Assembly: GCA_903914175.1 (NCBI GenBank)
Contig: CAIWNX010000234.1
Coordinates: 1-42,406 of the forward strand
Direction: 5' to 3'
Origin: an uncultured beta proteobacterium
GTDB lineage: Bacteria; Pseudomonadota; Gammaproteobacteria; Burkholderiales; Burkholderiaceae_C
Length of the DNA stretch: 42,406 bases
In this document: one piece after another, positions 4,537 to 33,748 of the stretch
How positions within the stretch are numbered: position 1 is the first letter of the stretch
How the letters are laid out: every line of letters begins with the position of its first letter
Position numbers and translations under genes: made by a program
The notes under the pieces: model-generated
Databases searched by the model: none
The model's input: the letters and a program-made list of their open reading frames with translations, nothing else
What the model was told of the DNA's origin: nothing

Positions 4537-4562
4537 GCCGGCGGGGCGCGCGCCGCGCCGGC
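4537..4562 (-). terminator. intercistronic GC-rich stem-loop between binding-protein and ATPase genes
   Basis: Arms GCCGGCG (4537-4543) and CGCCGGC (4556-4562) are perfect inverted repeats. They enclose a second self-complementary stretch, GGCGCGCGCC (4545-4554), and no T-run follows on the minus strand. Such hairpins between a periplasmic binding-protein gene and the rest of an ABC operon often attenuate or protect mRNA so that binding protein is made in excess. That role here is inferred. Confidence 0.5.
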
Positions 4563-4592
4563 GAGATTCAGGAGACCGTGGCCGCGGGTCGG

Positions 4593-5684: not shown

Positions 5685-5785
5685 CTCGGTCTCCGGGTTG
5701 TTATCGGGGCCCATTGTTTATTGTCGAATCCCCGTACATTAGTGCCAATCGGTGAAAATTATTGGGTCCAATACCGCTGCCACAC
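5685..5785. promoter_or_regulatory. divergent promoter with tandem ATTRGKKCCAAT operator-like sites
   Basis: The 101-base gap between the polyamine operon and the regulator contains two copies of one motif: ATTAGTGCCAAT (5738-5749) and ATTGGGTCCAAT (5761-5772). The second has perfect ATTGG/CCAAT arms. They lie in the same orientation, 23 bases apart, about two helical turns. MocR/GabR-type regulators are known to bind direct repeats spaced like this. The likely ligand of the site is the neighbouring regulator; this is inferred. Confidence 0.5.
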
Positions 5786-10089: not shown

Positions 10090-11139
10090 TCAGCGCTGTC
10101 GGGGTGGTGCAGAAGTGTCGCGACGAATAAGTTGTACCGGCATCACGTCGCGAGTCGGCGGCGTCAGTGCGCCGTTGCGAATTCGATCGAGCATTCGTCG
10201 GCACGCAACGCGTGCCATATCCTTGGCCGAAGAGTTGATCGTGGTCAGGCTAATCAGCCGTGAACCCGCCAGCGGAATGTTGTCAAAACCCACCACCGAC
10301 AACTGACCTGGCACATCAATATTCTTCGTGCGCGCAGCTTCAAGCACACCCAATGCGATCGAATCGCCACCGGCCATGATGGCGGTGACTGGATCTTGAA
10401 GCTCAAGCATCTGGGTTGAGCCCGAGTAGCCTGACTCGTAGCTGAATGTGTTCCAAACGACGGGCGTGTTTTCCGGCGGCACACCCTTTTCGCGGAGAAA
10501 ACTAAGGGCTCCCCTGGCGCGATCTCGACTGGTTGATGAGTTCTCGGGGCCCATCACCAATCCAATTCGGCGATGGCCGAGTTCATAGAGGTGCCGCATG
10601 ATTTCAGCGCCACCAGAAAAATTATCGGATTCAACGATGTCGGCCTTCGAGTCGTCCATCGAACGCACCGCCAGGACAACGGGAACGCCTAACCTTTGTA
10701 GTTCTCGAACCATGAATGAGTCGGTCGTAGCCGAAAGCAAGATCATCCCCTCCAGGTATTCATCGATGATCGGACGAAAACTCGAGAGGTGTGCAGCGTC
10801 ATTCGCCGAGTTCATCGGATCAATGAGCACCATGACGTGGTATTGAAACTCCAACATGTCGTGATGGATATTTTCCAGCACCATTGTCATGAAGCGGTTA
10901 TGCAGCTGATCCACACTGAGCAAAACGCCGACGGTGCGTGTGGGAAGGTTTCTTTTCTTCTTGCCCGGTCGCTTGGATGCATAGCCCATTGAAACCGCAG
11001 CGCGTTGCACCGCATCTCGCGTCTCTTCGCTGATTGTCTGGTGCCCCGCCAGTGCGCGCGAAATCGTTGAAGTGGAAAGCTTGAGCGCGTCAGCGATGTC
11101 CTGTAACAGAACACTCTTCTTCGAATTTGAACTGGACAT
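10090..11139 (-). CDS. LacI-family transcriptional repressor of the downstream divergent operon
   Basis: About 349 residues. The N-terminal LacI helix-turn-helix (LLQDIADALKLSTSTISRAL, about 12-31) and hinge helix are followed by a periplasmic-binding-protein-like effector domain (TVGVLLSV onward) with the GHRRIGLVMGP and VVGFDNIPLAG signatures. ATG 11139 is preferred over a TTG at 11205. It diverges from a ribose-type ABC importer operon, the common arrangement for local repressors that sense the imported solute or a derivative. Three palindromes lie in the shared intergenic region. The effector is unknown. Confidence 0.92.
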   Translation of the reverse strand: MSSSNSKKSVLLQDIADALKLSTSTISRALAGHQTISEETRDAVQRAAVSMGYASKRPGKKKRNLPTRTVGVLLSVDQLHNRFMTMVLENIHHDMLEFQYHVMVLIDPMNSANDAAHLSSFRPIIDEYLEGMILLSATTDSFMVRELQRLGVPVVLAVRSMDDSKADIVESDNFSGGAEIMRHLYELGHRRIGLVMGPENSSTSRDRARGALSFLREKGVPPENTPVVWNTFSYESGYSGSTQMLELQDPVTAIMAGGDSIALGVLEAARTKNIDVPGQLSVVGFDNIPLAGSRLISLTTINSSAKDMARVACRRMLDRIRNGALTPPTRDVMPVQLIRRDTSAPPRQR

Positions 11140-11508
11140 AAAGCGTCGTCGGTTGATTTTTATCTGCTTTGCGGCGGTCGGATTTTGGCGTAGAAATTGG
11201 AACAATTATGTAGCAAAATCAATGCAAATTGCATAAAATTTGACTAATGGTTTGCGCTAATTCCTTGCTAAATCGGTTAAATCAGTGGCAATCTCCCTGC
11301 ATTACCTCCTTGGATAACCTTATTGTCCCCCTGTTATTCATTGGTGGAAATGAAAAATTTGACAAAATCAGGTGATCTAGGGAATTTCCCTAATGTTTGC
11401 ACTGCAATTGCATATTTTTTGCACGTACATTTAGCCCAGGTAGGCAGACTAGCGCTGCAGACCGTGATGGTGATGCGATGTCCGCGACCACACAAACTAG
11501 GAGACTAA
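11140..11508. promoter_or_regulatory. divergent control region with three palindromes
   Basis: This AT-rich gap of 369 bases has no gene. It holds perfect palindromes ATGCAAATTGCAT (11222-11234), TAGGGAATTTCCCTA (11378-11392) and TGCAATTGCA (11403-11412). The first and third share the TGCAA/TTGCA half-site typical of LacI-family operators; the second lies 13 bases after a perfect TTGACA (11359-11364), where a -10 element would be expected. No convincing TATAAT is seen 16-18 bases downstream of TTGACA, so the promoter may be weak or activated. An AGGAG precedes the first structural gene at 11498-11502. Confidence 0.6.
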
Positions 11509-12687
11509 ATGAAGCTGAGCCTGAAGCGATTTGCGACGCTATGCGTCGCGTCTGCACTCCTGGCTGGCGGCGTCGCGAACGCTGCCGGTCTGGATGAAAT
11601 ACCTGCTGATGTAGCGAAACGTCTGTACTCGAAGGAAGTACTGGATCCGGCGCAACCGGTTGGCCCAAGTGCCTACCGGGATTGGAAGCCCAAGAAGGGC
11701 CCGCCCTGGACCATCGGCTATGCCAGTTCCTACGCAGGCAACACTTGGCGTGCTGCCGCGATGGACAGACTGCAAAACGAGATCATCCCCAAGTGGAAGA
11801 AACTCGGGTTGATCAAGGAAGTCATCATCACGCAGTCGAATCTGAAGGATGCAACGCAAATTCAACAGATGCGCCAGTTGGTTGATCAAGGGGTAGACGC
11901 AATCATTGTTTGTTGCTCCAACCCGACCGCACTCAACCAGACCATTAAATATGCGTATGACAAAGGTGTTCCAACGTTCTCCTTTACAGGATATTTGACC
12001 TCGCCGTATGCAATCAATTCTTCTGTCAACTACCAAGTAGGTGGCCGTGAGTTGGGTCTGTGGATGGGTGAGCAAATTGGCAAGAAGGGCAATGTTCTGG
12101 TCGTGCAAGGGATTCCTGGCACATCAGGCTCCGACTCGCAAGATCGCGGCATCAAGTCCGGTTTGGCCACCTTCCCGGACATCAAAGTCGTCGGTGACGT
12201 TGCTGGCATGTGGACCGACCAGGTTGCACAGGCCGAAGTGCAAAAATGGTTGGCAACAAATCCGGGCCAACTTGACGGCATCGTTGTCCAGTCCGCAGCC
12301 GAACTCGGTGTACTGCGGGCTGTCCAGCAGTCGGGCCGCAAGATGATACCGATTGCCATCGGCGGCGAAGTCGGGGCACTGTGCTACTGGCGCAAGAATC
12401 CTGGCTACATCAGCAGCGCTATCCAACTGTGGCCTCCAGGTGACGACATTGAACTGGCTTGGAACATCATGATGCGCACGCTTGAAGGTCAAGGCCCCAA
12501 GATGCAATCGGTGCTGGTCGATGCGGTCAAGTTCACGATTGATGATGTCAAGAAGCTTGTTCCAGAGAACTGCAGTCAAGACTCAGACAAATGGGTGAAC
12601 GTTGGAACGGACAAATGGGGCAGCAGTTTGGCCTATCTCGACAAGTTCTTCCTGCGTCCGGCCGACCCGGAAAAATTCAAGCGCTAA
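11509..12687 (+). CDS. ribose-type ABC transporter periplasmic binding protein
   Basis: This 392-residue secreted protein has a clear signal peptide (MKLSLKRFATLCVASALLAG, cleavage near VANAA). The two-lobed type I periplasmic-binding fold includes TIGYASSYAGNTWRAAAMD, LVDQGVDAIIVCCSNPTAL and VVQGIPGTSGSDSQDRGIK. Sugar-binding members are about 300-330 residues, so this one is long. AGGAG sits five bases before the ATG. It is the first gene of the operon and is followed by a stable hairpin. The ligand is unknown; given the downstream lactone and hydroxyacid enzymes it need not be a sugar. Confidence 0.9.
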   Translation: MKLSLKRFATLCVASALLAGGVANAAGLDEIPADVAKRLYSKEVLDPAQPVGPSAYRDWKPKKGPPWTIGYASSYAGNTWRAAAMDRLQNEIIPKWKKLGLIKEVIITQSNLKDATQIQQMRQLVDQGVDAIIVCCSNPTALNQTIKYAYDKGVPTFSFTGYLTSPYAINSSVNYQVGGRELGLWMGEQIGKKGNVLVVQGIPGTSGSDSQDRGIKSGLATFPDIKVVGDVAGMWTDQVAQAEVQKWLATNPGQLDGIVVQSAAELGVLRAVQQSGRKMIPIAIGGEVGALCYWRKNPGYISSAIQLWPPGDDIELAWNIMMRTLEGQGPKMQSVLVDAVKFTIDDVKKLVPENCSQDSDKWVNVGTDKWGSSLAYLDKFFLRPADPEKFKR

Positions 12688-12804: not shown

Positions 12805-14820
12805 TTGACTCTCTATCCGCAAATTATCGTGCCCCACTCAGTGATCGACGAGAGCCGTGCGCATGCCGCCGCCGCCCCTCCTACCGCAACCCGGGGGATC
12901 GCGATCGTCGGTGTGCGCAAGTCTTTTGGCATGACCAAAGCACTCAACGGGTGCAACTTCAGCGCCAACCTGGGTGAAATCCACGCTATCGTAGGCGGCA
13001 ATGGCTGCGGCAAGAGCACGCTTGCAAAAGTTATATCCGGCGTGATACAGATCGATGCGGGTCAAGTATCGGTTCTTGGCCGCAGTCCAGCGGCACCACA
13101 CGAAGCCCGCGCTGCGGGGATTGCCACTGTATTCCAGGAAGTCCTTGTTGCGGACGACTGCTCAGTGGTGGAAAACCTGTACCTTGGCGCCGACAGTTTG
13201 TGGTCGCGCGCCCTGAGTACAACGGAAAAATATGAAACCGCCAAATCCTTGATGAAGGAGTTGACGGGTTTGCCGATTGATCCCGATACCTTGGTCGGGA
13301 TGCTTCCGTTGAACATCAAGCAATGGATCACCATTGGTCGCGCCTTGCTCTGCAAGCCTCGGGTGCTGATACTCGACGAATCGTCAGCAGCGCTTGATCT
13401 GGATTCCACGGAACGTTTGTTTGCCAAGATGCGTTCCATGCGCGACGCTGGTGCTGCGGTCATCATCGTTACCCACCGCATTGCGGAATTGATACGCGTC
13501 TGTGATCGCGCCACCGTATTGCGTGATGGCCAGGATGTTGGCGTCCTGGAAAAGGGTGAAATCACCGAGAAGAATCTGCTGCGCCTCATGACGGGCAAAG
13601 GTGATTCGCCGGCTGAAGGAGCGCAAAAAAGAGAGGCGGCGGCACTCGGCAGCGTGGTCATGCACGCACGCCAAATGAAGGTCTGGCCGCAGGCCGTACC
13701 TGTGAGTTTTCAACTGCGACAAGGTGAGATCCTGGGCGTGGCCGGACTCGACGGACAGGGACAGAGTGAATTCGTGCGCATGCTGGCTGGCGTTGATCCC
13801 TCGATCCAATCAACACCGCAAGTACAAAACGAACATGGTGAGTTTGTCGACATTACCGACCTGAAATCAGCCGTCAACCGGGGTGTTTCCTACGTGTCGG
13901 GTGACCGCAAGCGCGAAGGTATCTTTGCCAATCTGAGCATTTTCGAGAACCTCCTGATGCCGCTTTACCGGCGCAAGACAAGGGGCGGAAAACTGGCGCT
14001 TATAGACTGGTCCAGTCTGGATGGCATTTTTGATTGGGAAGTGGAGCGACTCGCCATTCGGATGGGTGAGCGCGGCAACAAGATCACCTCTCTGAGTGGC
14101 GGCAACCAACAAAAAGTTCTCATTGGACGCGCCTTCGCGCTGAACCCCAGTATTCTGGTTTTGAACGATCCAGCGCGAGGCATCGATGTGGGTGCCAAGG
14201 CGGAGTTGTACCGGCACTTGCGTGACTTCGCGAGTATTGGCAAATCCGTCGTCTACCTCTCCAGCGAAATAGAGGAATTCGTCGGTTTTTGCTCACGGGT
14301 TTTGGTGTTTCGCAATGGCAGCATTTTCGATGAGTTCGCTGGCGGTGACATCCACCCCAAGCCGATCTTGGAAGCGATGTTTGGGCAGACCCGCGTCAAG
14401 CAAGTGCCTCAACAACTTGACGAATCAGTAACAGAGGAGAACGAAAGCATGAAGATCGTTGAATTTGACAAAGACGAAAAGGCTGATTCAGCGCGTAGGC
14501 CCGACAACTGGAAAGACAGGACCAGTGCTTACCCCAACTTCGACAGCAAGTCCGAGACGCCCCCAAAACCGCGCAGCCTCGATGCGTTTCGAACTTCGCC
14601 CTATCCTCACGTCGGTACCGAAGACATCAAGCCGGGGTTGTCATCCGGTCAGAGGCCCATTGTGGCCAAAGAGTTCAATCAGCCGACCCCGCCAGCGGAC
14701 CCGCGCAGGCTTGGTGAACGCACCGTGAAAGCCGATACAGCACCGACCGCTTCCACGACACGCTCGCCGATCAAAATCGTCGAGTTCGGGCAAGACGCTT
14801 CAACACGGCCACGTCGATGA
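12805..14820 (+). CDS. ribose-type ABC transporter ATPase (tandem NBDs) with a long C-terminal tail
   Basis: This 671-residue protein has two nucleotide-binding domains (about 30-275 and 285-540), as in RbsA, plus a polar, proline-rich tail of about 123 residues. NBD1 has an intact Walker A (GGNGCGKST), but its signature is degenerate (LPLNIKQW). NBD2 has LSGGNQQKV, a degenerate Walker A (GLDGQGQSE) and an unusual Walker B (LVLNDPARG instead of LxLDEPxRG). Site 1 (Walker A of NBD1 plus LSGG of NBD2) looks competent; site 2 looks dead. The start is uncertain: the frame has no ATG, so TTG 12805 or GTG 12829/12841 must serve. The tail begins at an in-frame ATG (14449) with a good ribosome binding site and ends with a second KIVEF motif. 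Confidence 0.88.
   Translation: MTLYPQIIVPHSVIDESRAHAAAAPPTATRGIAIVGVRKSFGMTKALNGCNFSANLGEIHAIVGGNGCGKSTLAKVISGVIQIDAGQVSVLGRSPAAPHEARAAGIATVFQEVLVADDCSVVENLYLGADSLWSRALSTTEKYETAKSLMKELTGLPIDPDTLVGMLPLNIKQWITIGRALLCKPRVLILDESSAALDLDSTERLFAKMRSMRDAGAAVIIVTHRIAELIRVCDRATVLRDGQDVGVLEKGEITEKNLLRLMTGKGDSPAEGAQKREAAALGSVVMHARQMKVWPQAVPVSFQLRQGEILGVAGLDGQGQSEFVRMLAGVDPSIQSTPQVQNEHGEFVDITDLKSAVNRGVSYVSGDRKREGIFANLSIFENLLMPLYRRKTRGGKLALIDWSSLDGIFDWEVERLAIRMGERGNKITSLSGGNQQKVLIGRAFALNPSILVLNDPARGIDVGAKAELYRHLRDFASIGKSVVYLSSEIEEFVGFCSRVLVFRNGSIFDEFAGGDIHPKPILEAMFGQTRVKQVPQQLDESVTEENESMKIVEFDKDEKADSARRPDNWKDRTSAYPNFDSKSETPPKPRSLDAFRTSPYPHVGTEDIKPGLSSGQRPIVAKEFNQPTPPADPRRLGERTVKADTAPTASTTRSPIKIVEFGQDASTRPRR
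14449..14820 (+). CDS. possible internally initiated 123-residue product of the ATPase gene
   Basis: GAGGAG lies nine bases upstream of an ATG at 14449 in frame with the ATPase. Translation here would release the polar tail as a separate protein beginning MKIVEFDKDEKADS and ending with a near repeat, IKIVEFGQDAS. The segment is rich in Pro, Lys, Asp and Arg and probably disordered. It may be an ancestral separate gene fused to the ATPase, or an alternative product. Only the initiation signal and the repeated motif are visible; the function is unknown. Confidence 0.35.
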   Translation: MKIVEFDKDEKADSARRPDNWKDRTSAYPNFDSKSETPPKPRSLDAFRTSPYPHVGTEDIKPGLSSGQRPIVAKEFNQPTPPADPRRLGERTVKADTAPTASTTRSPIKIVEFGQDASTRPRR

Positions 14821-14851: not shown

Positions 14852-16243
14852 ATGAGCGACAGCGGCACTGAAACACAGGGCGGATCAGCTTCCAACACCT
14901 ATCTGTTGGTTCCGATCCTGCTGTTGTTTCTTTTGCTCATCATTGCGGTGTTGCGCAGCCCCAATCTGGTTTCAAGTGCCGGTATTGGCAGCGCAGTGAT
15001 CGTGATGACGCCTTTGGTGCTGGCAACTTATTCGCTGATGGCATTGGCCATGGCGGGACGCGGAACGGTGGACCTCTCGGTTGGGCCGCTCATGGGATTT
15101 GTAAACGTGACCCTGGTCGTTCTGAATGGTTTGGGTGCACTGGAGTCACCGCTGCTTTTCTTTCTGTATGCGATCGCAGTTGGTGTCGCCTACCAGTTGC
15201 TGATGGGGTTGATCATTGTGTATGTGCGGGTGCAGCCCATCATCGTGGCGCTCAGCGGCTACCTTGCGTTGTCTGGCATCAACTTGGTCATCCTGCCGCG
15301 CCCTGGCGGCACTGCCCCCGAATGGATGTCGGCCTGGGGTTTGGGTACAACGATCGACTCGCCGATCCTGGTCATCCTCGTGCTTTGCACGGCCGCCTGG
15401 CTGATCTTTACGCGTACAGCGTTTTACGGACATTTGCGACTGATGGGCTCGGATGAACGCGCAGCCTACACCAGCGGTGTGCGCATCACCATTGTTCGCC
15501 TGGGCGCACACTGCATCGCCGGGGTCTTCAGCGCGCTTGCGGCGTTGACCTATACCGCGCTCATTGGATCCGGTGACCCGACCCAAGGAACCACCTATAC
15601 CCTGATCTCGGTCACCGCACTCGTTCTCGGCGGCACCAGCCTGGCCGGGGGACGGGGTGGCGCGATCGGATCTTTACTGGGTGCAGTCAATCTTTTCCTG
15701 ATTGGCTACGTGCTTGCCACTTTCAGTTTTGGGGCGGTGCAGGGATTTGTTACCGACCTTGCCTATGGCGCAATTCTTGTGCTTTCGTTGTTGCTGACGA
15801 TCGCCATTCCATGGTTGCAAAGGCGCATCCGGCACGTTTCTCCGGCCTTGATCTTCATCGTCCTGTCGATGCTGTTTGTGGGCGTCATTCTGCATGCCAA
15901 ATATGACTACGCCGCTCCGGCGAAACCGGCTGCAGTGGCGGTAGCAGGCAAGGCCGGCTCGCCGGCACGGTCGGTCGACTTTGTTTTCGAACGCTGGGAA
16001 GATGGAACGCAAGCCAGCAGTGGCACACTGGCAAAACCCATCACACTGTTCAGCCTGCTGATTCTGTCGGTGCTCGTCATTGCCAGAGCCCTTGTGTTAC
16101 AGAGTCAGCAGCGCCGCTGGTCGCCGCGAATGATCATCATCTTGCTGGTATTGCTGGGTTTCGCTGCTTACCTTGTCGCAACCTACGTTGACGCAGTCCA
16201 AACGCCTGCGGCAGTTATCAAATCAGTGAAGGCGAATCCATGA
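14852..16243 (+). CDS. ribose-type ABC transporter permease 1, C-terminally extended
   Basis: This 463-residue inner-membrane protein has an RbsC-type core (about 15-330): AGRGTVDLSVGPLMGFVN in the first half and LVLGGTSLAGGRGGAIGSLLGA in the second. RbsC proteins have about 320 residues. Here some 130 residues follow, with a helix (about 332-348), a soluble loop rich in Ala/Pro with WEDGTQASSG, and two further helices. The loop could present a docking surface to the extra membrane proteins of the operon. The stop overlaps the next permease start as ATGA. Confidence 0.9.
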   Translation: MSDSGTETQGGSASNTYLLVPILLLFLLLIIAVLRSPNLVSSAGIGSAVIVMTPLVLATYSLMALAMAGRGTVDLSVGPLMGFVNVTLVVLNGLGALESPLLFFLYAIAVGVAYQLLMGLIIVYVRVQPIIVALSGYLALSGINLVILPRPGGTAPEWMSAWGLGTTIDSPILVILVLCTAAWLIFTRTAFYGHLRLMGSDERAAYTSGVRITIVRLGAHCIAGVFSALAALTYTALIGSGDPTQGTTYTLISVTALVLGGTSLAGGRGGAIGSLLGAVNLFLIGYVLATFSFGAVQGFVTDLAYGAILVLSLLLTIAIPWLQRRIRHVSPALIFIVLSMLFVGVILHAKYDYAAPAKPAAVAVAGKAGSPARSVDFVFERWEDGTQASSGTLAKPITLFSLLILSVLVIARALVLQSQQRRWSPRMIIILLVLLGFAAYLVATYVDAVQTPAAVIKSVKANP

Positions 16244-17634
16244 ACCCGGTCGCCATTAAGTTGAACACGGTACGTGCCCGCTTATCCAACCTGCAGTGGG
16301 CGGGTCTTATTGTGGCTGTCCTGATCGTTGGATTGGGCGTCATTCTCGGTCTGTATCAAAAGACACCGTGGCAGCAACTGATCTTTTACGCAGCAGCAAC
16401 TTTTGCGCTTGTGATCTGGGTTTGGAATGCCTACCTGGCCCCTGGGGCACAACACGCTGACGACGCCCCCAACGAGGGGCCCAGCGGCTTGGCAGTGTTT
16501 CGCGTCTTCATTCGCCGGCACCTGTCCTTGGTGATTTCCCTGGCTATTTTGCTGGGAATTTTCCTGATTGCCTCGGCCACTGTGCCCGGCTTTTTCAACT
16601 GGTTGAACGTTCTTACTTTCCTGGCGCTGGTGGCATTGCTGATTTTTACAGTGCAGATCAGCCAACTGTTTGTTGACAACCGCAGTGCTTTTATCGGGTT
16701 GATGGTGTTGGTGACCATGTTTGCCATCGGTTCGATTTTCATTGACGGATTTTCTTCCGGGCAAAACATCAAATCGATGCTGCTCTTTGCGTCATTTCTC
16801 GGCCTGGCCTGCGTCGGGCAGACCATGGTGGCATTGTTGGGGGGGCTGGACCTTTCCATTCCCTTCGTGATCGGCGCCTCCAACGTGTTCCTTCTCTACC
16901 TCATCGGGTTGGGCGTCTATTCGTGGATCGCCGTCATCATCGTGCTGTTGCTGGGTGCCCTGGTTGGGTGGATCAACGGCATACTGAGTTATCGCCTGCA
17001 GGGACAAGCGCTAATCCTGTCCCTTGGTGTCGGTTTTGCCATTTCGGGCCTGACCCAAATTGTGACCAGCATTGGCACCGCCTTTGCTGGCAATGTGTTC
17101 GGCATCGTTCCGCCTTGGTTGAAGAATCTGGCAGCCATGAACGGCACCACTTTAGGTTTGGACGTTCCACCCGTCATTTTTATCTGGGCCGTTGTCGCGG
17201 TGTTGCTGATCTACGGCATGAAGAGCACGGTGTACGGCCGGTTTTTGTACGCCCTGGGAGGCAATCGCACTTCGGCCTCGCGCATTTCGATCAGCGAACG
17301 CCGTTACTGGGTTGGAGCCTACCTTGTCAGCGGGACCGTTTCGGCCCTCACTGGCATTCTGTTACTTGGCTGGAGTGGTGGTGGTTTCATTGGCGTTGGC
17401 CAGCCTTACCTGTTCATGACACTCGCCGCCGTGGTCATGGGTGGCACATCTTTGCTGGGCGGTCAAGGTGGCTACGGCTTTACGGTGATTGGCGTACTGG
17501 TGCTGCAGGTATTGACTTCGTTCCTTGTCGGCATCGGTCTTAAATTTGAATGGCAGCAATTCATCTTCGGATTGCTGATCCTGCCGATGGTCGCCTTGTA
17601 TGCCCGTTCGCCCCACATCCGAACGCAAATTTGA
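16240..17634 (+). CDS. ribose-type ABC transporter permease 2, N-terminally extended
   Basis: This 464-residue permease partners the preceding one; the ATGA overlap indicates coupled translation. The first about 90 residues hold two additional helices (LQWAGLIVAVLIVGLGVILG and LIFYAAATFALVIWVWNAYL) and a hydrophilic linker. The RbsC-like core then begins near FIRRHLSLVISLAILLGIFL and includes LLGGLDLSIPFVIGASNVFL and VVMGGTSLLGGQGGYGFTVI. Two different, enlarged permeases imply a heterodimeric pore, unlike the usual RbsC homodimer. Cargo unknown. Confidence 0.9.
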   Translation: MNPVAIKLNTVRARLSNLQWAGLIVAVLIVGLGVILGLYQKTPWQQLIFYAAATFALVIWVWNAYLAPGAQHADDAPNEGPSGLAVFRVFIRRHLSLVISLAILLGIFLIASATVPGFFNWLNVLTFLALVALLIFTVQISQLFVDNRSAFIGLMVLVTMFAIGSIFIDGFSSGQNIKSMLLFASFLGLACVGQTMVALLGGLDLSIPFVIGASNVFLLYLIGLGVYSWIAVIIVLLLGALVGWINGILSYRLQGQALILSLGVGFAISGLTQIVTSIGTAFAGNVFGIVPPWLKNLAAMNGTTLGLDVPPVIFIWAVVAVLLIYGMKSTVYGRFLYALGGNRTSASRISISERRYWVGAYLVSGTVSALTGILLLGWSGGGFIGVGQPYLFMTLAAVVMGGTSLLGGQGGYGFTVIGVLVLQVLTSFLVGIGLKFEWQQFIFGLLILPMVALYARSPHIRTQI

Positions 17635-17690: not shown

Positions 17691-18392
17691 ATGAATATCA
17701 AGTTGCTTGAGGCAACCGACGTCGCCAGCGGCACATTCTCCTTGTTGCTGCTGACCACCCTGGCAGCTACAGTTTTGCTTTTGATGGGCACGGCCTGGGT
17801 ATCTCGCAAGTGGAAGCTGCCTCTGGCCATGGCTGCCATGGTCATGCTGGTGAGTGCCGCACATTACTTTGAGGCCAGCCAAGTCTGGCAGGCCAGTAAC
17901 CAAATGCCGGTAATTTACCGCTACGTTGCGTGGTTCATCACCATGCCACTGCAGGTCATGGTCATGTACTTCTTCGTGAACGCCATGGCGCCCTTGTCAA
18001 CCTGGTTGTTCTGGCGCCTGATGGTGGCGTCGGTCGTGATGGTGCTGGCGCGGTATTTGGGCGAAGCCAACCTGATGTACCCGACGCTTGGCTTCCTCAT
18101 TGGTCTGGCATGCTGGCTTTACGTGTTGGGCGAAGTGTTCTTTGGCCGCATGGCCGAGGTCAGCGCCAGAAGTTCCAACTTCAGTGTGCACCGGGGCTAC
18201 TTTTGGATGCGACTGATCATCTCGATTGGCTGGGCGGTCTATCCGCTGTGCTACTTCATCGTCGGTTTCGCCGGCGGCGTGTCACCGGGCAAGTTGAGTG
18301 TTGTCTACAACCTGTCGGATCTGGTGAACCAGGTGGCGTTTTGCCTCACGGTCCTTTCGGCGTCGATTCGTGACTCAGGAAACACCCGATGA
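17691..18392 (+). CDS. type 1 (microbial) rhodopsin homologue lacking the retinal-binding lysine
   Basis: This 233-residue protein has seven predicted helices (about 15-36, 43-65, 75-97, 103-122, 128-150, 173-195, 203-226). It aligns along its length with proteorhodopsin: RYVAWFITMPLQ matches RYIDWLLTVPLL, YLGEANLM matches YMGEAGIM, GWAVYPLCYF matches GWAIYPVGYF, and VVYNLSDLVNQ matches LIYNLADFVNK. Proteorhodopsin numbers in brackets: H58 (H75), R77 (R94), W81 (W98), T84 (T101), W181 (W197), Y184 (Y200) and D210 (D227) are kept. The Schiff-base Lys (K231) is Q214 (codon CAG), the proton acceptor D97 is A80, and the donor E108 is V91. Covalent retinal binding and proton pumping are therefore not expected. 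GGAG lies seven bases before the ATG. Lysine-less type 1 opsin homologues have been reported, but their role is not settled; a sensor or scaffold role here is inference. Confidence 0.92.
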   Translation: MNIKLLEATDVASGTFSLLLLTTLAATVLLLMGTAWVSRKWKLPLAMAAMVMLVSAAHYFEASQVWQASNQMPVIYRYVAWFITMPLQVMVMYFFVNAMAPLSTWLFWRLMVASVVMVLARYLGEANLMYPTLGFLIGLACWLYVLGEVFFGRMAEVSARSSNFSVHRGYFWMRLIISIGWAVYPLCYFIVGFAGGVSPGKLSVVYNLSDLVNQVAFCLTVLSASIRDSGNTR

Positions 18393-18495: not shown

Positions 18496-20202
18496 ATGAA
18501 CGGCGCCGACATCATTGCCATCGTTATCCTGGCCGCAATTGTCATTGCGATCATTGTCTATTTATTGCACTGGTTGTACCGACATTCTTCCAAAGATTTG
18601 TCCTTTGTACGCACCGGTTTCGGGGGCGAGCGCGTGGTCATGGGCGGTGGCGCTCTGGTGCTGCCGATCGTGCACGACATCACCGAGGTCAGCATGAATA
18701 CGCTGCGCATTGACGTGCGTCGTGCGGGTGAAAAGTCACTCATTACACGAAACCGCATGCGCATCGAAGTCAACGTCGAGTTCTTTGTCCGTGTGATTCC
18801 CTCGCCTGAAGCGGTTGCAGCCGCGGCCCGAACTTTGGGCAACCGCACGCTCAACCCCGACAGTTTGAAAGACCTGGTGCAGGGCCGTTTTGTCGATGCC
18901 ATGGGCTCGGTGGCAGCGCGTATGACGATGGAAGAGATCCATGAACACCGCAGCGACTACATCAAGAGCGTGAAAGCCCTGGTTGCCGATTCCCTCACTG
19001 CCAACGGCCTGGAACTGGAAGCGGTTTCGCTCACCGGTTTGGATCAGACAGACATGAAGTTGTTTAACCCCTCCAACGCGTTTGACGCCGAGGGTTTGAC
19101 ACGTCTGACAGAAGAAATTGAAACCCGCAAGAAGAAACGTAACGACATCGAGCAGGACACGATGATCGCGATTCGCAAGAAGAACCTGGAATCCGAGAAG
19201 CTTGCGCTCAGCATCGACCAAGAGAGCGAATTTGCCCGCTTGAGTCAGGAAAGCGAAGTGGCAATGCGTCGTGCACAACAGAAAACCGAAATCGCGCTGG
19301 AGAAAACTGATCGTGAGCGTGACATTGAAGAAGCGCAGATTCGGTCAGCGGAAATTGTTCAAAAGAGTCGTATCAACCAGACCCGTGCCATTGATTCAGA
19401 GCGTATTTTGCAGGAGCAAAAAACTTCACAACTCGACATCCAGCGCCGCCGTGCCCTGGAACTTGAAGAGCAGGAGCGCGTGATCGCGGTGGCCGCCAAG
19501 TCCAAGGACGAGTCAGAGGCACAGGCGCAGGCTGAATCGGCACGCGCCCTCATGATTGCCGCGCAGGAAAAAGTGATTACGGTGCGCGAAACTGAAATTG
19601 CTGAACGCCGCAAATTGATTGATTTGATTGAAGCGACGCAAGAAGCAGAGCGTGACGCCATCATGCAAACCAAGCGTGCCGAAGCCGGTTTAATTGCCGC
19701 AGTGGACCAGGCCAAAGCCGAGCGCACCAATGCCGAGGCGGCGGCTTATCGTTACGACGTGGACGCAGAGGGCAAGCGCAAGCTCAACGAAGCGGAGAAT
19801 TTGCGCTCGGACGCATCGCGGCGCAGCAGCTTCAACCAGAAATTGATCGATACCCTGCCGAGCATCATCCGCGAGAGCGTCAAACCGATGGAAAACATCG
19901 AGTCGATCCGGATCCTGCAAGTCGACGGTGTGCCTGGCTTGAGCGGCGCTGCGGGTGGTGGCGGTTCCGGTGCGAGCAACGGCGAAGGCGGCCCGCGCGC
20001 CGGCGGTTTGAGCGACAACGTGGTGAATTCAGCCCTGCGCTACCGTGCCCAGGCGCCGTTCATTGACTCCTTGTTGCAGGAGATTGGCGTATCACCGAGC
20101 TCCATCACCAGCCTGGGGCACTTGGGCAGCGTGATGGCCTTGCCTGTCACAGACAACAAAGACGGCAACTCCGCAGCCGACGGCGCCGCCGGCAAGCCCT
20201 GA
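18496..20202 (+). CDS. flotillin-like SPFH-domain membrane protein
   Basis: 568 residues. One N-terminal transmembrane helix (about 5-28) is followed by an SPFH/band-7 domain (about 35-215), a long charged alternating helix region rich in Glu, Ala, Lys and Arg (about 215-450), and a Gly-rich linker (GAAGGGGSGASNGEGG, near 482-497) before a short C-terminal domain. This matches the YqiK/FloT class, which oligomerises in the inner membrane and organises lipid microdomains around partner proteins. GGAGGG lies eight bases before the ATG. Lying between a rhodopsin-like protein and a symporter gene, it may scaffold the operon's membrane proteins; this is inference. Confidence 0.9.
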   Translation: MNGADIIAIVILAAIVIAIIVYLLHWLYRHSSKDLSFVRTGFGGERVVMGGGALVLPIVHDITEVSMNTLRIDVRRAGEKSLITRNRMRIEVNVEFFVRVIPSPEAVAAAARTLGNRTLNPDSLKDLVQGRFVDAMGSVAARMTMEEIHEHRSDYIKSVKALVADSLTANGLELEAVSLTGLDQTDMKLFNPSNAFDAEGLTRLTEEIETRKKKRNDIEQDTMIAIRKKNLESEKLALSIDQESEFARLSQESEVAMRRAQQKTEIALEKTDRERDIEEAQIRSAEIVQKSRINQTRAIDSERILQEQKTSQLDIQRRRALELEEQERVIAVAAKSKDESEAQAQAESARALMIAAQEKVITVRETEIAERRKLIDLIEATQEAERDAIMQTKRAEAGLIAAVDQAKAERTNAEAAAYRYDVDAEGKRKLNEAENLRSDASRRSSFNQKLIDTLPSIIRESVKPMENIESIRILQVDGVPGLSGAAGGGGSGASNGEGGPRAGGLSDNVVNSALRYRAQAPFIDSLLQEIGVSPSSITSLGHLGSVMALPVTDNKDGNSAADGAAGKP

Positions 20203-20241: not shown

Positions 20242-20688
20242 ATGTCCTTTACGCCAAACGACCCGGCCATTGTGATCGTTGAAAAACGACTGGCAGTGGT
20301 TACCAATTGGAGTCTCTTTGCTTCATTTGGCATGTGCTTTTTGTTGTCGGGTTTCAGTGGTGCGAACTGGGGTTTGGGCTTGCTGGGATACGGGCTATTG
20401 GTACTGGGATTTGTCGGGCATCTGGTCATCAACCACGTCTTCGAGCAAGGATTCAGTCCAGGCGAAGTGGCCCTGGGCCTCGTGTTATTTGGCATCTCTG
20501 CTTTGAGTTTCATTGCCAGTGCTTTGTTCGGCGCACGATTTGGTCCAGAGAACCTGGGCTTGGGTCTGGCCGGTTTTGGCGCCCTTGCGGCATGTCTCAT
20601 GTTCTATCTGGTGATCCGCTATGGTATGCGCGGCACCTGGGACCTGATCCACACCCTGCGCCATCGCGAAAAGGACACGTCGTCATGA
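20242..20688 (+). CDS. small four-helix membrane protein of unknown function
   Basis: 148 residues with four predicted membrane helices (about 20-36, 42-64, 74-96, 103-125), a soluble N-terminus (MSFTPNDPAIVIVEKRLAVV) and a charged C-terminus (LIHTLRHREKDTSS). Helices are Gly/Leu-rich with repeated NWGLGLLGYG / NLGLGLAGFG segments, suggesting an internal duplication of two two-helix units. I do not recognise the family. The stop overlaps the symporter start as ATGA, so it is probably an accessory subunit made with the symporter. Confidence 0.8.
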   Translation: MSFTPNDPAIVIVEKRLAVVTNWSLFASFGMCFLLSGFSGANWGLGLLGYGLLVLGFVGHLVINHVFEQGFSPGEVALGLVLFGISALSFIASALFGARFGPENLGLGLAGFGALAACLMFYLVIRYGMRGTWDLIHTLRHREKDTSS

Positions 20689-22658
20689 CGGAACAATTGG
20701 TTTGGCTGTTCGCCTTTGTCGCGCTCTATTGGGCCTACTGCATGCAGTGGGGTGTCAGCAGTGCGCGTCTGGCGCAAGGGCCGAGCGACTTCTTCCTTGC
20801 CAACCGTAGTTTGCCGGCCTGGGTATTTGTGCTGTGCGCTACCGGCGCTTCGTTTGCTGGCTGGGGAATGATGGGGTACCCTTCTCTGGTGATGCGCGAC
20901 GGGCTGGCATTTGCGCAACTCGCGCTGGCCGCTGTAACGATTCCGCTCACCGGTGTCTTGTTCATGAAGCGCCAGTGGCTGCTAAGCAAGCGCTTTGGCT
21001 ACATCACGCCTGGTGAGATGCTCAGCGACTACTTTGGTGGTGACGCTCTGCGCATTTTGGTCGTTGGCATTGCACTGGTGTGCGCCGTGCCCTACGTGGG
21101 CATGCATCTCAGCGCAACCGGTTACCTGATTCAATGGCTCAGCGCAGGTGCGATTCCGGCCAGACTGGCGATGTGGTTGCTGACGGCCGTGGTGTTCCTG
21201 TATGTCGTTATTGGTGGTTTGCGCGCAGTGGCCTACGTTGGTAGCCTGCAGGGTTTGATGTTGGGCGCGGGCATGTTGGCGCTCGGTTGGCTTGCAATGT
21301 GGCACCTGGGTGGCGTGGAAGGCTTCAATGCTTTCATGCAAGGTTTGGCCAAGCTCGGAGCCAGCACGCTCGGAGCATGGGGTAATTCCGCTGAGGGTTA
21401 CAACGCGTACTTGCACATCCCTGGGGTTGTGCAATTCACGGCAGGAATGGGCAGGGAAGACCCGGTTGCAGGGATGTGGACCAGCGCCATGATTCTTTCA
21501 ACCTGCTTTGCCCTGATGGGCATACAGGCCTCGCCGGCGTTTTCCATGCTGGCGTTTAGTTGTCGCGACCCCAAAGGCTTCGGGCCACAGCAGGTCTGGG
21601 TTTCTGCTGCCGGGGTGGGGTTGCTTCTGGTTTTCTTTGGGCTGGTTCAAGGTCTGGGCGCGAATTTTTTGGGTGCCTCCTCTGCGTTACGTGAAGCAGG
21701 CTTGGCGCTTGGCTCGGTACTGCCAGATTTGGGGCAGGGCAAAGACGCCCAGTTGTACGCGCGCTATCTGCTAACACTGGCCGAATCGGCACCGTGGTTC
21801 ATGGCGTTGCTGGCGGTTTGCGCTTTGGCTGCGATTCATTCCATGGTGTCGCTGTTCACCGCGACTACCGGCACCATCATCGTGCGCGACGTTTTCCTGC
21901 GTTACTTGACACCCCGTGCCAACCTGACCCAACAAAAGCTCTATGCCCGCTGCAGCATTGCGGCCATCATTTTTGCCGCTTTGTTGTTGGCAACCTTTGC
22001 ACCGAGCGCGCAAGCGCAAATGGGTTCGCTTGCCTTGGGTTTTGCTCTGCAACTGTGGCCGGCATTGGCAGGCGTTTGCTGGTTTCCTTGGATTACACGC
22101 CAAGGAACCAGCGTCGGTCTGGTCGCTGGCCTGCTGGGTGTGTTGTTCACCGAGACACTGGGCAACACCATCTGCAGTTTTCTGGGTTTCGATCTACCCT
22201 GGGGTCGTTGGCCGTGGACCATCCACTCAGCCGGATGGGGTATTTTCCTGAACATTGTTTCTTGCACGGTGGTGTCCTGGATTTCCGCCGAAAGGCATGA
22301 CCGTGTTCGCCGCGCGCAGTTCCATGCACTGTTTGCGCAGACCGTCGCTATTGCACCGAAGAAGCGCTTCTTGCGCCCCGTCGCCTGGTCATTGACCCTC
22401 ATCTGGTTCTTCTTTGCCATAGGTCCGGGGGCAATTTTGGGAAATGATTTATTGGGCGCACCCAATGCCGGACCCAAGGGCTGGATCATGGGTGTGCCTT
22501 CGCTTTGGGCCTGGCAAATGATGTGGTGGGCTCTGGGTGTTTTGATCCTCTGGTTTCTGGCCTATCGGATGCAAATGTCCACCCCGCTCCAAGGTGACAA
22601 CTTTTTCTACGAAGCCGTTCCAACCCATTCCATTTCAATTTCGAAGGAGTCTTCATGA
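20685..22658 (+). CDS. sodium:solute symporter family (SSS) transporter
   Basis: About 657 residues with some 13-14 helices. SSS features are the N-terminal segment GPSDFFLANRSLPAWVFVLC, TGASFAGWGMMGYPSLV and FGYITPGEMLSDYFGGDALR. Such carriers use the sodium gradient to take up solutes, often monocarboxylates, amino acids or sugars. The open frame extends upstream to 20307, but the true start is the ATG at 20685, which overlaps the preceding stop; the extra residues are only the shifted frame of that gene. It offers a second import route beside the ABC importer, possibly for a carboxylate such as 4-hydroxybutyrate; the cargo is inferred. Confidence 0.88.
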   Translation: MTEQLVWLFAFVALYWAYCMQWGVSSARLAQGPSDFFLANRSLPAWVFVLCATGASFAGWGMMGYPSLVMRDGLAFAQLALAAVTIPLTGVLFMKRQWLLSKRFGYITPGEMLSDYFGGDALRILVVGIALVCAVPYVGMHLSATGYLIQWLSAGAIPARLAMWLLTAVVFLYVVIGGLRAVAYVGSLQGLMLGAGMLALGWLAMWHLGGVEGFNAFMQGLAKLGASTLGAWGNSAEGYNAYLHIPGVVQFTAGMGREDPVAGMWTSAMILSTCFALMGIQASPAFSMLAFSCRDPKGFGPQQVWVSAAGVGLLLVFFGLVQGLGANFLGASSALREAGLALGSVLPDLGQGKDAQLYARYLLTLAESAPWFMALLAVCALAAIHSMVSLFTATTGTIIVRDVFLRYLTPRANLTQQKLYARCSIAAIIFAALLLATFAPSAQAQMGSLALGFALQLWPALAGVCWFPWITRQGTSVGLVAGLLGVLFTETLGNTICSFLGFDLPWGRWPWTIHSAGWGIFLNIVSCTVVSWISAERHDRVRRAQFHALFAQTVAIAPKKRFLRPVAWSLTLIWFFFAIGPGAILGNDLLGAPNAGPKGWIMGVPSLWAWQMMWWALGVLILWFLAYRMQMSTPLQGDNFFYEAVPTHSISISKESS

Positions 22659-23044
22659 CGACAGACATCAAAAGCTGGGCGATCAAGTTCAAGAACCTGT
22701 CTGACAGCGACAAGACGATTGCCGCGATGGCGAAGTATTACACCTGTACCTATATGTGGGACATGGGTGAGAAGAAACTCATCATTGAAATGCACGACGG
22801 CAAGGTCAAGCACATCAACACCGATCCGGCACCGCTGGACGCCTATGACTTTGCGCTTCGCGCCAGTGCCCAGACCTGGCGCGAGTTTGGCAGGCCGATG
22901 CCACGTCCGATGTTCCACGGTATCTGGTCGGCGAGTTTTCGGGAAGACCTGAAGCTTGAAGGCAACATCCTGGTACTGATGCAGCACTTGCGCAATTTCA
23001 CTGTGCAGTTCGAGTTGCTGCGCAAGTGCGGTGTGCCTGTTTAA
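22655..23044 (+). CDS. SCP2-like (sterol-carrier-type) small protein
   Basis: 129 cytoplasmic residues. The central part (TYMWDMGEKKLIIEMHDGKV onward, ending in FREDLKLEGNILVLMQHLRN) has the beta-strand and helix order of SCP2-type lipid-binding domains, in which a hydrophobic pocket carries acyl or sterol-like ligands. The start overlaps the symporter stop by ATGA. Its presence hints that a lipid or hydrophobic acyl compound is handled by the operon. The domain call rests on a pattern, not on a unique motif. Confidence 0.6.
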   Translation: MTTDIKSWAIKFKNLSDSDKTIAAMAKYYTCTYMWDMGEKKLIIEMHDGKVKHINTDPAPLDAYDFALRASAQTWREFGRPMPRPMFHGIWSASFREDLKLEGNILVLMQHLRNFTVQFELLRKCGVPV

Positions 23045-23090
23045 ACACGGTTTTCACGCCGGTCATTTTCTACACGAAGGAGCTCAATCC

Positions 23091-23942
23091 ATGGCACGCC
23101 ATTCACCTGTTACCGGACGCTACGTCACGATCGACGTCGACGGCATGGAATACAAGGTCTTTTACTTGCAAAACGGCAAAGGCCAGCCGCTGATATGCCA
23201 GCACACGGCGGGATGTCACAACCACCAGTGGCGCGGCTTGCTCGAAGATGAAGAGATCACCAAGAACTACAACGTCATTGCGTACGATCTGCCGCGCCAC
23301 GGCAAGTCGGATCCGCCGTTGAACACCAAGTGGTGGGAGTCCGAATACAAACTCACGGCAGACCACTACGTCAACTTCATCGTCAAGCTATGCGACGCGC
23401 TGGAGTTGCGCGACCCGATTTTCATGGGTTCGTCATTCGGCGGCAACGTTGCGCTACAGCTCGCGCTACGGCATCCGGAGCGCTTCAAGGCCGTGATACC
23501 GGTCGAGGCCGGTGACTACGCACCTGGCTTTTACCTGGATTGGTGGCGTCACCCGATGGCCAATGCAGCGCAGGTCTGCGCCAGTGGTGTGTGGGATCTG
23601 ATGGCGCCGCAGTCACCCGACAAGGACCGCTGGCTGACCTGGTTTTACTACACCCAGGGCTCAGAGGCTTTCAAGGGCGACCTCTATTTCTACTCTGTGG
23701 ATCACGACTTGCGCGAAGAACTGGGGCGTATTGACGGCCGCAAGTGCCCGGTGATCATGATGACCGGCACCTACGACTACCTGACCACGCCAGAGATGAC
23801 CGAGAACACCGCTCGACAAATCAAAGGCGGTGTCTATATCGAGATGGAAGACATCGGGCACTTTCCGATGAGCGAGAACTATCCCGTCTTCAAGATCTAC
23901 TTGAAGGAGGCCTTGCGCATCATTCGTGAGCGCAAAGGCTGA
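23091..23942 (+). CDS. alpha/beta hydrolase
   Basis: 283 residues with a complete catalytic triad: nucleophile S115 in MGSSFGG, D229 in GTYDYLT and H257 in DIGHFPM. Oxyanion-side residues lie in QHTAGCHNHQW, and AYDLPRHGKSD is the usual strand 4 loop. There is no signal peptide, so it is cytoplasmic. I chose ATG 23091 because GAAGGAG lies nearby; the longer frame to 23031 overlaps the preceding gene. It likely cleaves an ester or lactone to feed the enzymes encoded downstream; the substrate is not known. Confidence 0.88.
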   Translation: MARHSPVTGRYVTIDVDGMEYKVFYLQNGKGQPLICQHTAGCHNHQWRGLLEDEEITKNYNVIAYDLPRHGKSDPPLNTKWWESEYKLTADHYVNFIVKLCDALELRDPIFMGSSFGGNVALQLALRHPERFKAVIPVEAGDYAPGFYLDWWRHPMANAAQVCASGVWDLMAPQSPDKDRWLTWFYYTQGSEAFKGDLYFYSVDHDLREELGRIDGRKCPVIMMTGTYDYLTTPEMTENTARQIKGGVYIEMEDIGHFPMSENYPVFKIYLKEALRIIRERKG

Positions 23943-23975: not shown

Positions 23976-24542
23976 ATGAAACTCGCACAAGTCAATGATT
24001 TTGCCGACAGCATTCCGGTGCTGCATGAGCAGGCATGCGAGCTATTTGAGTTGCCAATGGCACCAACGGACTGGCTGGCGGACCTTGGCACCGACAACGA
24101 TGACTTGATCCGTTACGTGGAAAAACTCCGTCCCTGCTATGACCGGCTTGGCCGCATCATTGGGCAACTGGCCGGGCTATTTGTCTTGGCGCGCTTCGGT
24201 GCTCGCTTTGAAACCGATTGGACCGCAGTGACCAAGGTGCTTGAGCAAACCCGGCAGACCGAGGCGGACATGCGCGCCGTGTGGGTGCCCAAGATCGCGC
24301 AGCAGCACTACGCCTATCTCATGCTGGCTTTTGGCAAGACAGCCGCGGTCACACGTGGCTTCAATGCGGATCTGCGCCGATCCGACGTACTACATGAACA
24401 ACTCGACAGTTGGACACGCGAACTCAAATTGGCCGGTGCCATGTTGAGTCGGGCGGCTGCCGAGAAGCTCGGGCTGTTGCCGGTCGATTTCAGTCAAGCC
24501 TGCTGCAACTGTGTTGCCAGCACCCCCAAACTTTTTCATTAA
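23976..24542 (+). CDS. conserved-looking hypothetical protein, mostly helical
   Basis: 188 residues, predicted largely alpha-helical and soluble, with no signal peptide and no motif I recognise. Tryptophans (APTDWLADL, TDWTAVTKVL, DSWTRELKLAG) and a C-terminal Cys cluster (SQACCNCVASTP, three Cys within four residues) stand out. It lies 33 bases after the hydrolase and 17 before the lactonase-like gene, so it is part of the operon. Codon use resembles that of its neighbours. No function is proposed. Confidence 0.75.
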   Translation: MKLAQVNDFADSIPVLHEQACELFELPMAPTDWLADLGTDNDDLIRYVEKLRPCYDRLGRIIGQLAGLFVLARFGARFETDWTAVTKVLEQTRQTEADMRAVWVPKIAQQHYAYLMLAFGKTAAVTRGFNADLRRSDVLHEQLDSWTRELKLAGAMLSRAAAEKLGLLPVDFSQACCNCVASTPKLFH

Positions 24543-24559: not shown

Positions 24560-25435
24560 ATGTCTGAATACTCAATCTGGGTCATGGAATACGCCTACGT
24601 TACGCAATGTGCCGTCAGTAGCGTTATCTACGGCGCGCACAACCAAGGCATACGAAAACTGCCCTACTGTTACGTGGTGATCAAGAGTCGTGATCGGATC
24701 GCGATGGTCGACGTCGGCTACAACGATAAGGAATACGGCCACTACATCTCGAGCAAGTTCGGGGTCGAAAACTGGCACTCGCCGGAAAGTGTGCTGGCAC
24801 CCTGTGGCATCCGGCCAGAGGACGTTGACGACATCTTCATTACGCACGCGCATTTTGACCACATGGGAAATATTGAATCCTTCCCAAATGCCGTCTTCCA
24901 TATTCAGGAGCGTGAGCTGACGAAATGGATATGGGCCATGTCGCTGCCAGACCGGCTACGTTACATGATGGTGGCGACGGACCCGTCAGACGTGCTGCGG
25001 GTCGCGGATTTGGCGCGGCAGGGTCGGCTGCGTCTGATTGATGGCGATAAACGCAACGTGATTCCCGGGGTCGATCTGCATGGCGCACCCGATACGCACA
25101 CCTACGGCAGCCAGTGGATACATGTGCGCAACGACATGCAGGCCGAGTCAAGTGACAGTTGGGTGCTCGCGGGTGACCTGGTTTATGTTTATGAAAACAT
25201 TGAAGGAACCGGTACCGACAAGATGTACATACCCGTCGGTCTCGCGCTGGGCAGCACGACCAACCTGGTGCTCACAACCGACGACATGATGAAGGCAGTG
25301 GACTTTGAAATGAAACGCCTCATTCCGGTACATGAAGAGAGATTGAAGGAAGTTTTCCCATCCCGGATCACGTCTTCAGGTTTGAGGATCAGCGAAATTT
25401 GTCTGGCCAGTGGACAGAAATCAATCGTTAGTTGA
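24560..25435 (+). CDS. metallo-beta-lactamase-fold lactonase-like hydrolase
   Basis: 291 residues with the dinuclear metal site of the AHL-lactonase-type MBL family: H96-x-H98-x-D100-H101 (THAHFDHMG), H180 (DTHTYGSQW), D206 (LAGDLVY) and H258 (PVHEERL). AHL and gamma-butyrolactone lactonases (AiiA, BlcC/AttM) share these ligands. Followed by an iron-type alcohol dehydrogenase and a semialdehyde dehydrogenase, it best fits opening of a gamma-lactone to 4-hydroxybutyrate or a similar hydroxyacid. Quorum-signal degradation is an alternative. Activity is inferred from fold and context. Confidence 0.85.
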   Translation: MSEYSIWVMEYAYVTQCAVSSVIYGAHNQGIRKLPYCYVVIKSRDRIAMVDVGYNDKEYGHYISSKFGVENWHSPESVLAPCGIRPEDVDDIFITHAHFDHMGNIESFPNAVFHIQERELTKWIWAMSLPDRLRYMMVATDPSDVLRVADLARQGRLRLIDGDKRNVIPGVDLHGAPDTHTYGSQWIHVRNDMQAESSDSWVLAGDLVYVYENIEGTGTDKMYIPVGLALGSTTNLVLTTDDMMKAVDFEMKRLIPVHEERLKEVFPSRITSSGLRISEICLASGQKSIVS

Positions 25436-25462
25436 ACAGGATCGACTTTATAGGGATTCATC

Positions 25463-26617: not shown

Positions 26618-26640
26618 ACCAATTTAACTGGAGCACTCTC

Positions 26641-29025: not shown

Positions 29026-29034
29026 GGCGCCGCC

Positions 29035-30207: not shown

Positions 30208-30512
30208 GGTCGATGCTCCTTGGGGTGGTTGGGTGAAAGTGAAATGAAATAAGTCGACTGCGGGCGGCGGGATCGGTTGGGCGCAGCATATTCACCGCGC
30301 CACGGGCTGTCTTGCGTCAATTGGTTACGGCTGCATGGATGCCGGATCAGGTCCGGCATGACAAGCGGGAAATTGTCATTGCGCGCCCGGACTGTCATTG
30401 CGGGCTCCGACCCGCAATCCATGCTTCGCGTGGCACGGTCATAAGGCATGGATGCCGGATCAGGTCCGGCATGACAAGCCAGCGGCTACGTACCTGGGCT
30501 TCGCCAGCGTCC
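30208..30512. repeat. intergenic region with REP-like palindromes
   Basis: The 305-base gap has no gene. It holds two identical 34-base copies of one unit (30333-30366 and 30446-30479) with inner arms GCCGGATC/GGTCCGGC, and between them a related palindrome (30394-30423, arms TTGCGGG/CCCGCAA). The 34-base copies are direct repeats 113 bases apart. A promoter for the 29035-30207 gene probably lies in its left 100 bases, but I see no clear boxes. Confidence 0.8.

Positions 30513-33748
<3,236 letters not shown>

Follow-up and report, generated by a model that had tools for sequence, protein, structure and literature searches.

The 42,406-nucleotide contig CAIWNX010000234.1 of an uncultured beta proteobacterium (assembly GCA_903914175.1), referred to below as the window, encodes a homologue of the microbial rhodopsins in which glutamine (Q214) takes the place of the Schiff-base lysine that binds retinal. 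The protein is a new member of an already published kind, the lysine-less branch of the flotillin-associated rhodopsins (FArhodopsins). Our favoured reading, held at about even confidence, is that it serves, independently of retinal and light, as a partner in the membrane for flotillin and for the co-encoded ATP-binding cassette (ABC) importer. A first-pass annotation of the window had proposed a light-independent sensor, scaffold or transporter subunit, or a protein binding another ligand. The light-independent part of this proposal is likely, since the gene is not decaying, the close family lacks the retinal lysine and no retinal-forming gene was found; among the roles, the operon favours an importer partner or scaffold over the others.

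The lysine site and the opsin family

The Pfam profile PF01036 (Bac_rhodopsin) covers residues 16-223 of the opsin (E 1.1e-22 in a profile scan of the window's proteins) and a seven-helix fold is predicted with confidence, which together mark a type-1 (microbial) opsin. The residues named in the first-pass annotation proved correct: H58, R77, W81, T84, W181, Y184 and D210 are kept, and the acceptor Asp, the donor Glu and the Lys of a light-driven proton pump are replaced by A80, V91 and Q214 (codon CAG), respectively. The good ribosome binding site that it claimed is a GGAG at seven bases before the ATG. The FArhodopsin family, which it had not named, could be identified because the next gene, on the same strand, encodes a flotillin. 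A freshwater branch of this family without the lysine was described in 2023 (Haro-Moreno et al., PMC10308929), in line with the earlier remark that lysine-less opsins had been reported. Its members are likewise opsins of the proteorhodopsin family adjoining flotillin, carry Gln, Thr, Leu or Arg at the lysine site, and have a wider taxonomic range in freshwater.

A search for relatives of the window opsin gave 346 matches at E 1e-10 or better. From the best 120 of these 346, which were usable, an alignment of 119 rows (A1) was made, consisting of the query and 118 listed relatives with 52-99% identity, P0064 and P0066 having been dropped beforehand. Site 214 is occupied by Gln in 100 rows, Leu in seven, Val in six, Arg in three, Glu in two and Thr in one, and by Lys in none. 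Close homologues with the lysine in the same gene context are thus not found among the 118 aligned relatives (all at least 52% identical), and because the Schiff-base lysine is absent the protein is to be seen as an opsin homologue and not as a working rhodopsin of the usual kind. W81, W142, E148, W181, Y184, P185, D210 and N213 are invariant in A1, and R77 is present in 117 of the 119 rows.

The lost residues in the window could in principle reflect a decaying gene or a sequencing error, and the relative in genome G1088, which is counted among the genomes considered below, is flagged with an in-frame TGA in its matched stretch (its Pfam match is not flagged). However, Q214 recurs in two other assemblies, L002 (98% identical) and L003 (97%), the frames are open in close relatives, and the lysine-less proteins form one clade with full support (see below). 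The ratio of nonsynonymous to synonymous substitution rates (dN/dS) of the window opsin against eight relatives is 0.027 (L002), 0.038 (L003) and up to 0.112; that of L004 against L006 is 0.000, and the highest among the computed opsin pairs is 0.134, with dS saturated in several pairs and L022 and L024 outside these values. Judging from these rates the opsin is under purifying selection, in agreement with the view of the first-pass annotation, which had suggested the dN/dS check, that this is not simple decay. With Q214 shared by the two other assemblies and dN/dS far below 1, decay or error was rejected as hardly credible.

A second search, seeded with the lysine-bearing FArhodopsin of genome G1183, gave 1972 matches, of which the best 120 were usable. 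Both listed sets and the proteins from the genome loci were combined in a table of 278 rows, near copies included, after removal of P0066, P0187 and P0194 by length; in one row (G1208) the residue at site 77 is unread. Sets reduced for near copies comprised 60 rows for a quick tree, and 54 lysine-less, 22 lysine-bearing and 14 proteorhodopsin rows for entropy and topology counts. The tree was built without sites 80, 85, 91, 121 and 214 and rooted on the proteorhodopsins. In it, the FArhodopsins (46 rows, 35 lysine-less and 11 lysine-bearing) form a clade beside the 14 proteorhodopsins with a support of 96 in the Shimodaira-Hasegawa-like approximate likelihood ratio test (SH-aLRT). All lysine-less rows lie on one side of a single branch (SH-aLRT 100, stem 0.7), so that the loss of the lysine requires one change; the lysine-bearing FArhodopsins as one clade have a support of only 2. 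The G1183 opsin is 42% identical to that of the window, bears the lysine and resides in the same type of operon, which places the loss of the lysine at the base of the clade rather than in the window gene alone. This opsin (L084, 9979-10677) combines the lysine with E121 and with Glu at the D210 site, and its importer-flotillin operon lies in a draft genome without another opsin or BCD match. The acceptor Asp is found in 119 of 120 lysine-bearing FArhodopsins versus 33 of 143 lysine-less rows; in the clade the acceptor site is variable.

Opsins and retinal-forming enzymes in the genomes

Opsin matches were obtained in nine of 300 genomes of the window's order and in 18 of 399 of its family. 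The FArhodopsin type (at least 57% identity) occurs in nine genomes, including the window's own, the other matches being proteorhodopsins or weaker. Searches of the phylum (eight matches in 398 genomes) and of the order of genome G874 (17 matches in 199 genomes) gave ten more FArhodopsin genomes from another class, nine of them lysine-less and one, G1183, with the lysine. The named relatives Tistlia consotensis and a Rhodospirillaceae bacterium suggest that this second order is the Rhodospirillales. The resulting 19 FArhodopsin genomes have estimated completeness values of 61% (G1183) to 100%.

In all 19 genomes the opsin is the sole Bac_rhodopsin match, and the profile search for the retinal-forming enzyme BCD/Blh gave no match above cut-off in any of them; the window's genome has neither a second Bac_rhodopsin match nor a BCD/Blh match. 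The earlier statement that no retinal-forming gene lies in the window can thus be extended to the genome as far as BCD/Blh is concerned. In the proteorhodopsin genomes from the same searches, BCD/Blh was present in 14 of 14 and five of seven cases. Outside the set of 19, genome G1064 likewise shows a single opsin match and none to BCD. Its opsin, on a 4-kb contig (L089, 2868-4027), is a FArhodopsin that bears the lysine and has Ala at site 121, accompanied by a flotillin-like frame that ends after 125 residues.

For marine FArhodopsins it has been proposed that they are light-using helpers of a proteorhodopsin that pumps protons within the same cell, a second, pumping rhodopsin having always been found in the marine taxa (PMC10308929). 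This statement is restricted to marine members, since its authors could not test it for freshwater ones. The sole opsin and the lack of BCD/Blh above cut-off across the 19 genomes contradict the proposal for the lysine-less branch, for which we regard it as very improbable.

Lycopene cyclase was counted only above 100 bits, as the profile is unspecific at low score (it responds in 10 of 14 control genomes). By this measure it occurs in one of the 19 FArhodopsin genomes (G1088) versus four of four proteorhodopsin controls; G1161 has a match of 55.4 bits with neighbouring pieces. In G1088 the lycopene cyclase match reaches 306.6 bits, yet no BCD match is found and the lysine-less opsin is its only opsin.

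Arginine 121, the pocket and the cytoplasmic half

Site 121 is a position that we take to line the retinal pocket and to be glycine in bacteriorhodopsin and proteorhodopsin. In the 278-row table, Arg is found here in 142 of 143 lysine-less rows (Gln in the other) and in none of the 135 lysine-bearing rows, which have Glu (101), Gly (21), Gln (10) or, once each, Asn, Ala and Lys; 15 of the Gly rows are proteorhodopsins, in agreement with the presumed pocket-lining glycine. After removal of near copies the counts are 53 of 54 lysine-less proteins versus none of 22 lysine-bearing FArhodopsins, 13 of which have Glu. Since the loss of the lysine, six different residues have come to occupy site 214 while R121 has stayed. 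The solved flotillin-associated rhodopsin PsFAR (PDB 9r21, 9r23) has the same fold (template modelling (TM) score 0.93) with 36% identity to the window opsin, but keeps the lysine; its His84 and Glu120 align with positions 85 and 121, where the window opsin has M85 and R121. Entry 9r23 alters precisely these two residues, as its title states (H84V/E120G), and the work behind 9r21-9r23 may cover the homologous pocket site.

The arginine bears on the idea of a photoreceptor that holds scavenged retinal or carotenoid non-covalently. Such a protein would be consistent with the retained pocket aromatics, and a bacterium without a known retinal gene has been reported to form working rhodopsins (PMC7734400). 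However, the former glycine site is almost uniformly Arg in the clade, the solved relative has a Glu at this site that was changed to Gly together with H84V, and 18 of the 19 genomes have no lycopene cyclase match above 100 bits, which makes this alternative improbable.

The pocket columns of the lysine-less clade (17 columns) are less variable than the remaining transmembrane columns (mean entropy 0.66 versus 1.24, p 0.002); the corresponding pocket values are 0.04 in proteorhodopsins and 0.56 in lysine-bearing FArhodopsins. These figures, the near-exclusive R121 and the presence of W81, W142, W181, Y184 and P185 in every row of A1 would fit an opsin that senses a ligand: the former retinal pocket, with the charge of R121, would bind an acidic small molecule or a fatty acid, and the change in shape would be relayed to flotillin or the importer. 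Proteorhodopsin free of retinal binds decanoate with the carboxylate on the lysine (PMC11322631), so that a ligand at R121 is conceivable. On the other hand, the pocket columns double as the core of the fold and are less conserved than in proteorhodopsins, the arginine could instead fill the pocket through a salt bridge, and no transducer gene (methyl-accepting or kinase) of the type that adjoins sensory opsins was found among the window proteins scanned. We therefore consider ligand sensing possible, though doubtful. A bolder version, which we regard as speculative, is that a light receptor was turned into a chemoreceptor for nutrient uptake: when the lysine was lost, the positive charge of the pocket would have shifted from K214 on helix G to R121 on helix D, the ligand would be a fatty acid or an acidic metabolite, and the flotillin-anchored opsin would gate or assemble the ABC importer. 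If true, this would be a bacterial counterpart of ligand-gated seven-helix receptors.

A partnership with flotillin and the importer may be reflected in the positions at which the lysine-less clade is fixed for a residue other than the majority residue of either other group. At a threshold of 85% there are 15 such positions, and 13 of them belong to the cytoplasmic half (p 0.003 relative to all positions and 0.004 relative to positions of equal conservation), whereas no such bias is seen in lysine-bearing FArhodopsins (4 of 10) or proteorhodopsins (12 of 23). At 80, 90 and 95% the p values range from 0.005 to 0.064. As most of the clade-specific fixed residues sit in this half, they may represent a contact face for partners on the cytoplasmic side, e.g. 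flotillin or the ATPase.

The operon and the role of the opsin

The opsin gene lies in an operon with a complete ABC importer, a flotillin, a symporter and several putative catabolic enzymes (Table 1). A scan for promoters and terminators gave fewer sites than the means of shuffled sequences, and none that could be used.

Table 1. Opsin gene, codons of interest and neighbouring genes in the window
Feature	Position	Strand	Remark
LacI-type regulator	10090..11205	-	divergent from operon
Periplasmic binding protein of ABC importer (Peripla_BP_4)	11509..12687	+	
ABC importer ATPase	12805..14820	+	two ABC_tran stretches
ABC importer permease a (BPD_transp_2)	14852..16243	+	
ABC importer permease b (BPD_transp_2)	16240..17634	+	immediately 5' of opsin
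Lysine-less flotillin-associated opsin	17691..18392	+	233 aa; A80, V91, R121, Q214
Codon 121, Arg	18051..18053	+	clade-fixed; Gly in proteorhodopsins, Glu in most lysine-bearing FArhodopsins
Codon 214, CAG	18330..18332	+	Gln replacing Schiff-base lysine
Flotillin (SPFH + flotillin domain)	18496..20202	+	568 aa; next mapped gene after opsin in 21/21 related loci
Sodium:solute symporter family protein	20307..22658	+	
129-aa protein	22655..23044	+	weak SCP-2 match below Pfam cut-off (E 0.043); co-occurs with opsin
Alpha/beta hydrolase	23031..23942	+	better conserved than opsin in most loci
188-aa protein	23976..24542	+	no Pfam or NCBIfam match
Metallo-beta-lactamase-fold hydrolase	24560..25435	+	
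Iron-containing alcohol dehydrogenase	25463..26617	+	
Succinate-semialdehyde dehydrogenase	26641..28101	+	passes two NCBIfam cut-offs

Permease b, opsin, flotillin and symporter are encoded together on one strand in all 21 distinct related loci (L007 and L041 are one contig and were counted once), mostly accompanied by an SCP2-like protein and enzymes, and the order permease - opsin - flotillin - symporter is kept across two classes of the phylum. Flotillins with at least 68% identity to that of the window occur in nine of the 399 family genomes, precisely the nine that carry the opsin; the next best flotillins reach at most 57% identity (578 versus 747 bits). In the loci of 12 more distant flotillins no opsin was found; nine of them have a different, two-ATPase ABC importer 5' of the flotillin and three do not. 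An importer beside this type of flotillin is thus a wider theme, of which the opsin marks one version. In genome G000 a second flotillin (L096, 8109-9803, on contig C178; 55% identical) follows a different ABC importer that comprises two ATPases and a protein resembling Peripla_BP_6, the importer arrangement of the nine loci just named, and is itself followed by two small proteins.

The 129-residue protein is found in 18 of the 21 loci, in three at just 23-30% identity. It is matched in all ten FArhodopsin genomes of the second order (seven at 66-76%, three at 29-31%) and in three of the remaining 189 genomes of that order (23-27%). In G874 it is 72% identical, the hydrolase 82% and the opsin 47%, and in most loci both proteins are better conserved than the opsin. 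Of 1046 matches in a search with this protein 120 were usable, 46 of which form alignment A2 with the query; its predicted model is poor (predicted local distance difference test score 51.6).

Given the symporter in all 21 loci, the opsin might alternatively provide a passive membrane path for protons, ions or solutes that serves the symporter or the importer. The ion-path residues R77 and D210 are nearly or fully conserved in A1; however, the donor has been lost and the acceptor site varies, and we consider a passive path unlikely.

According to the favoured reading, a partnership with flotillin and the importer, the opsin would be located in a flotillin microdomain, where its cytoplasmic half would contact flotillin and/or the importer. 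It would assemble, stabilise or modulate the uptake of a small organic substrate, and the co-encoded hydrolases and dehydrogenases would degrade this substrate, perhaps to succinate via succinate semialdehyde. There are precedents: one heliorhodopsin binds to an ABC transporter, which it up-regulates in light (PMC11109279), and flotillin is needed by an importer permease (PMC10147376). Several observations weigh against this proposal. A shared operon is no proof of physical contact, and the lysine-bearing G1183 opsin in the same kind of operon implies that the association does not depend on the lysine having been lost. The cytoplasmic bias is weaker at the 80% and 95% thresholds (p 0.018 to 0.064), with p values uncorrected for the thresholds tried, and the cytoplasmic half was assigned from a topology inferred from proteorhodopsin. 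Many of the genomes are drafts of tens to hundreds of contigs, so that the absence of a gene is not final, and G497 has one BCD piece below cut-off (22.2 bits). Finally, the 129-residue protein is only distantly alike in G1088, G1136 and G1161.

Among solved structures, the binding protein is closest to CUT2 sugar-binding proteins, but at 87 bits or less these were rejected as too distant to name the substrate. The row of hydrolase, iron-containing alcohol dehydrogenase and succinate-semialdehyde dehydrogenase genes (24560-28101) resembles the gamma-butyrolactone operon blcABC/attKLM. Such a pathway is kept as a lead only, because just the succinate-semialdehyde dehydrogenase passes a curated cut-off, the lactonase-like and alcohol dehydrogenase proteins passing none, and because the lactonase-like gene was not found in the loci of the second order. 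Elsewhere in the window, the minus strand of 28195-38467 encodes an enoyl-CoA hydratase, a Peripla_BP_6 protein, an FMN oxidoreductase, an acyl-CoA dehydrogenase, an AMP-binding ligase, two ABC ATPases and a permease, a set suggestive of a second importer together with CoA-dependent degradation. A histone-deacetylase-like gene lies beside another ABC importer (two BPD_transp_1 proteins, an ABC ATPase and SBP_bac_8) on the minus strand of 820-5714.

Among other opsins of this type, Rh-noK of betaproteobacteria reportedly lacks the lysine as well. In the haloarchaeal opsin-related proteins (Becker et al. 2016, PMC4915679), for which a function other than light reception was proposed, the lysine site is taken by Arg, or by Leu or a different hydrophobic residue. 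One of their two groups lies beside a chemotaxis transducer in all but one of 16 cases, whereas none was found among the window proteins scanned, and both groups have lost pocket aromatics, unlike the window clade with its invariant W81 and Y184. Compared with the published account of the FArhodopsins, the sole opsin, the lack of BCD/Blh above cut-off, the full ABC importer operon and R121 are additions: in the sections of PMC10308929 consulted no mention was found of the R121 replacement, of genomes with a single opsin or of the importer operon, and the term "ABC transporter" has no occurrence in its main text. PMC10308909 mentions the family name once, and in the literature searched for lysine-less opsins and flotillin no further paper was recognised as treating the family.

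For the question of what opsins without retinal do, the lysine-less FArhodopsin branch offers a clean case: it is a single clade in which the lysine was lost once, one replacement (R121) became fixed and the neighbouring genes form a fixed set, and its genomes yielded neither a further opsin nor a retinal-forming enzyme. For this branch, the results point toward a partnership with the importer and away from the idea of a pump helper.
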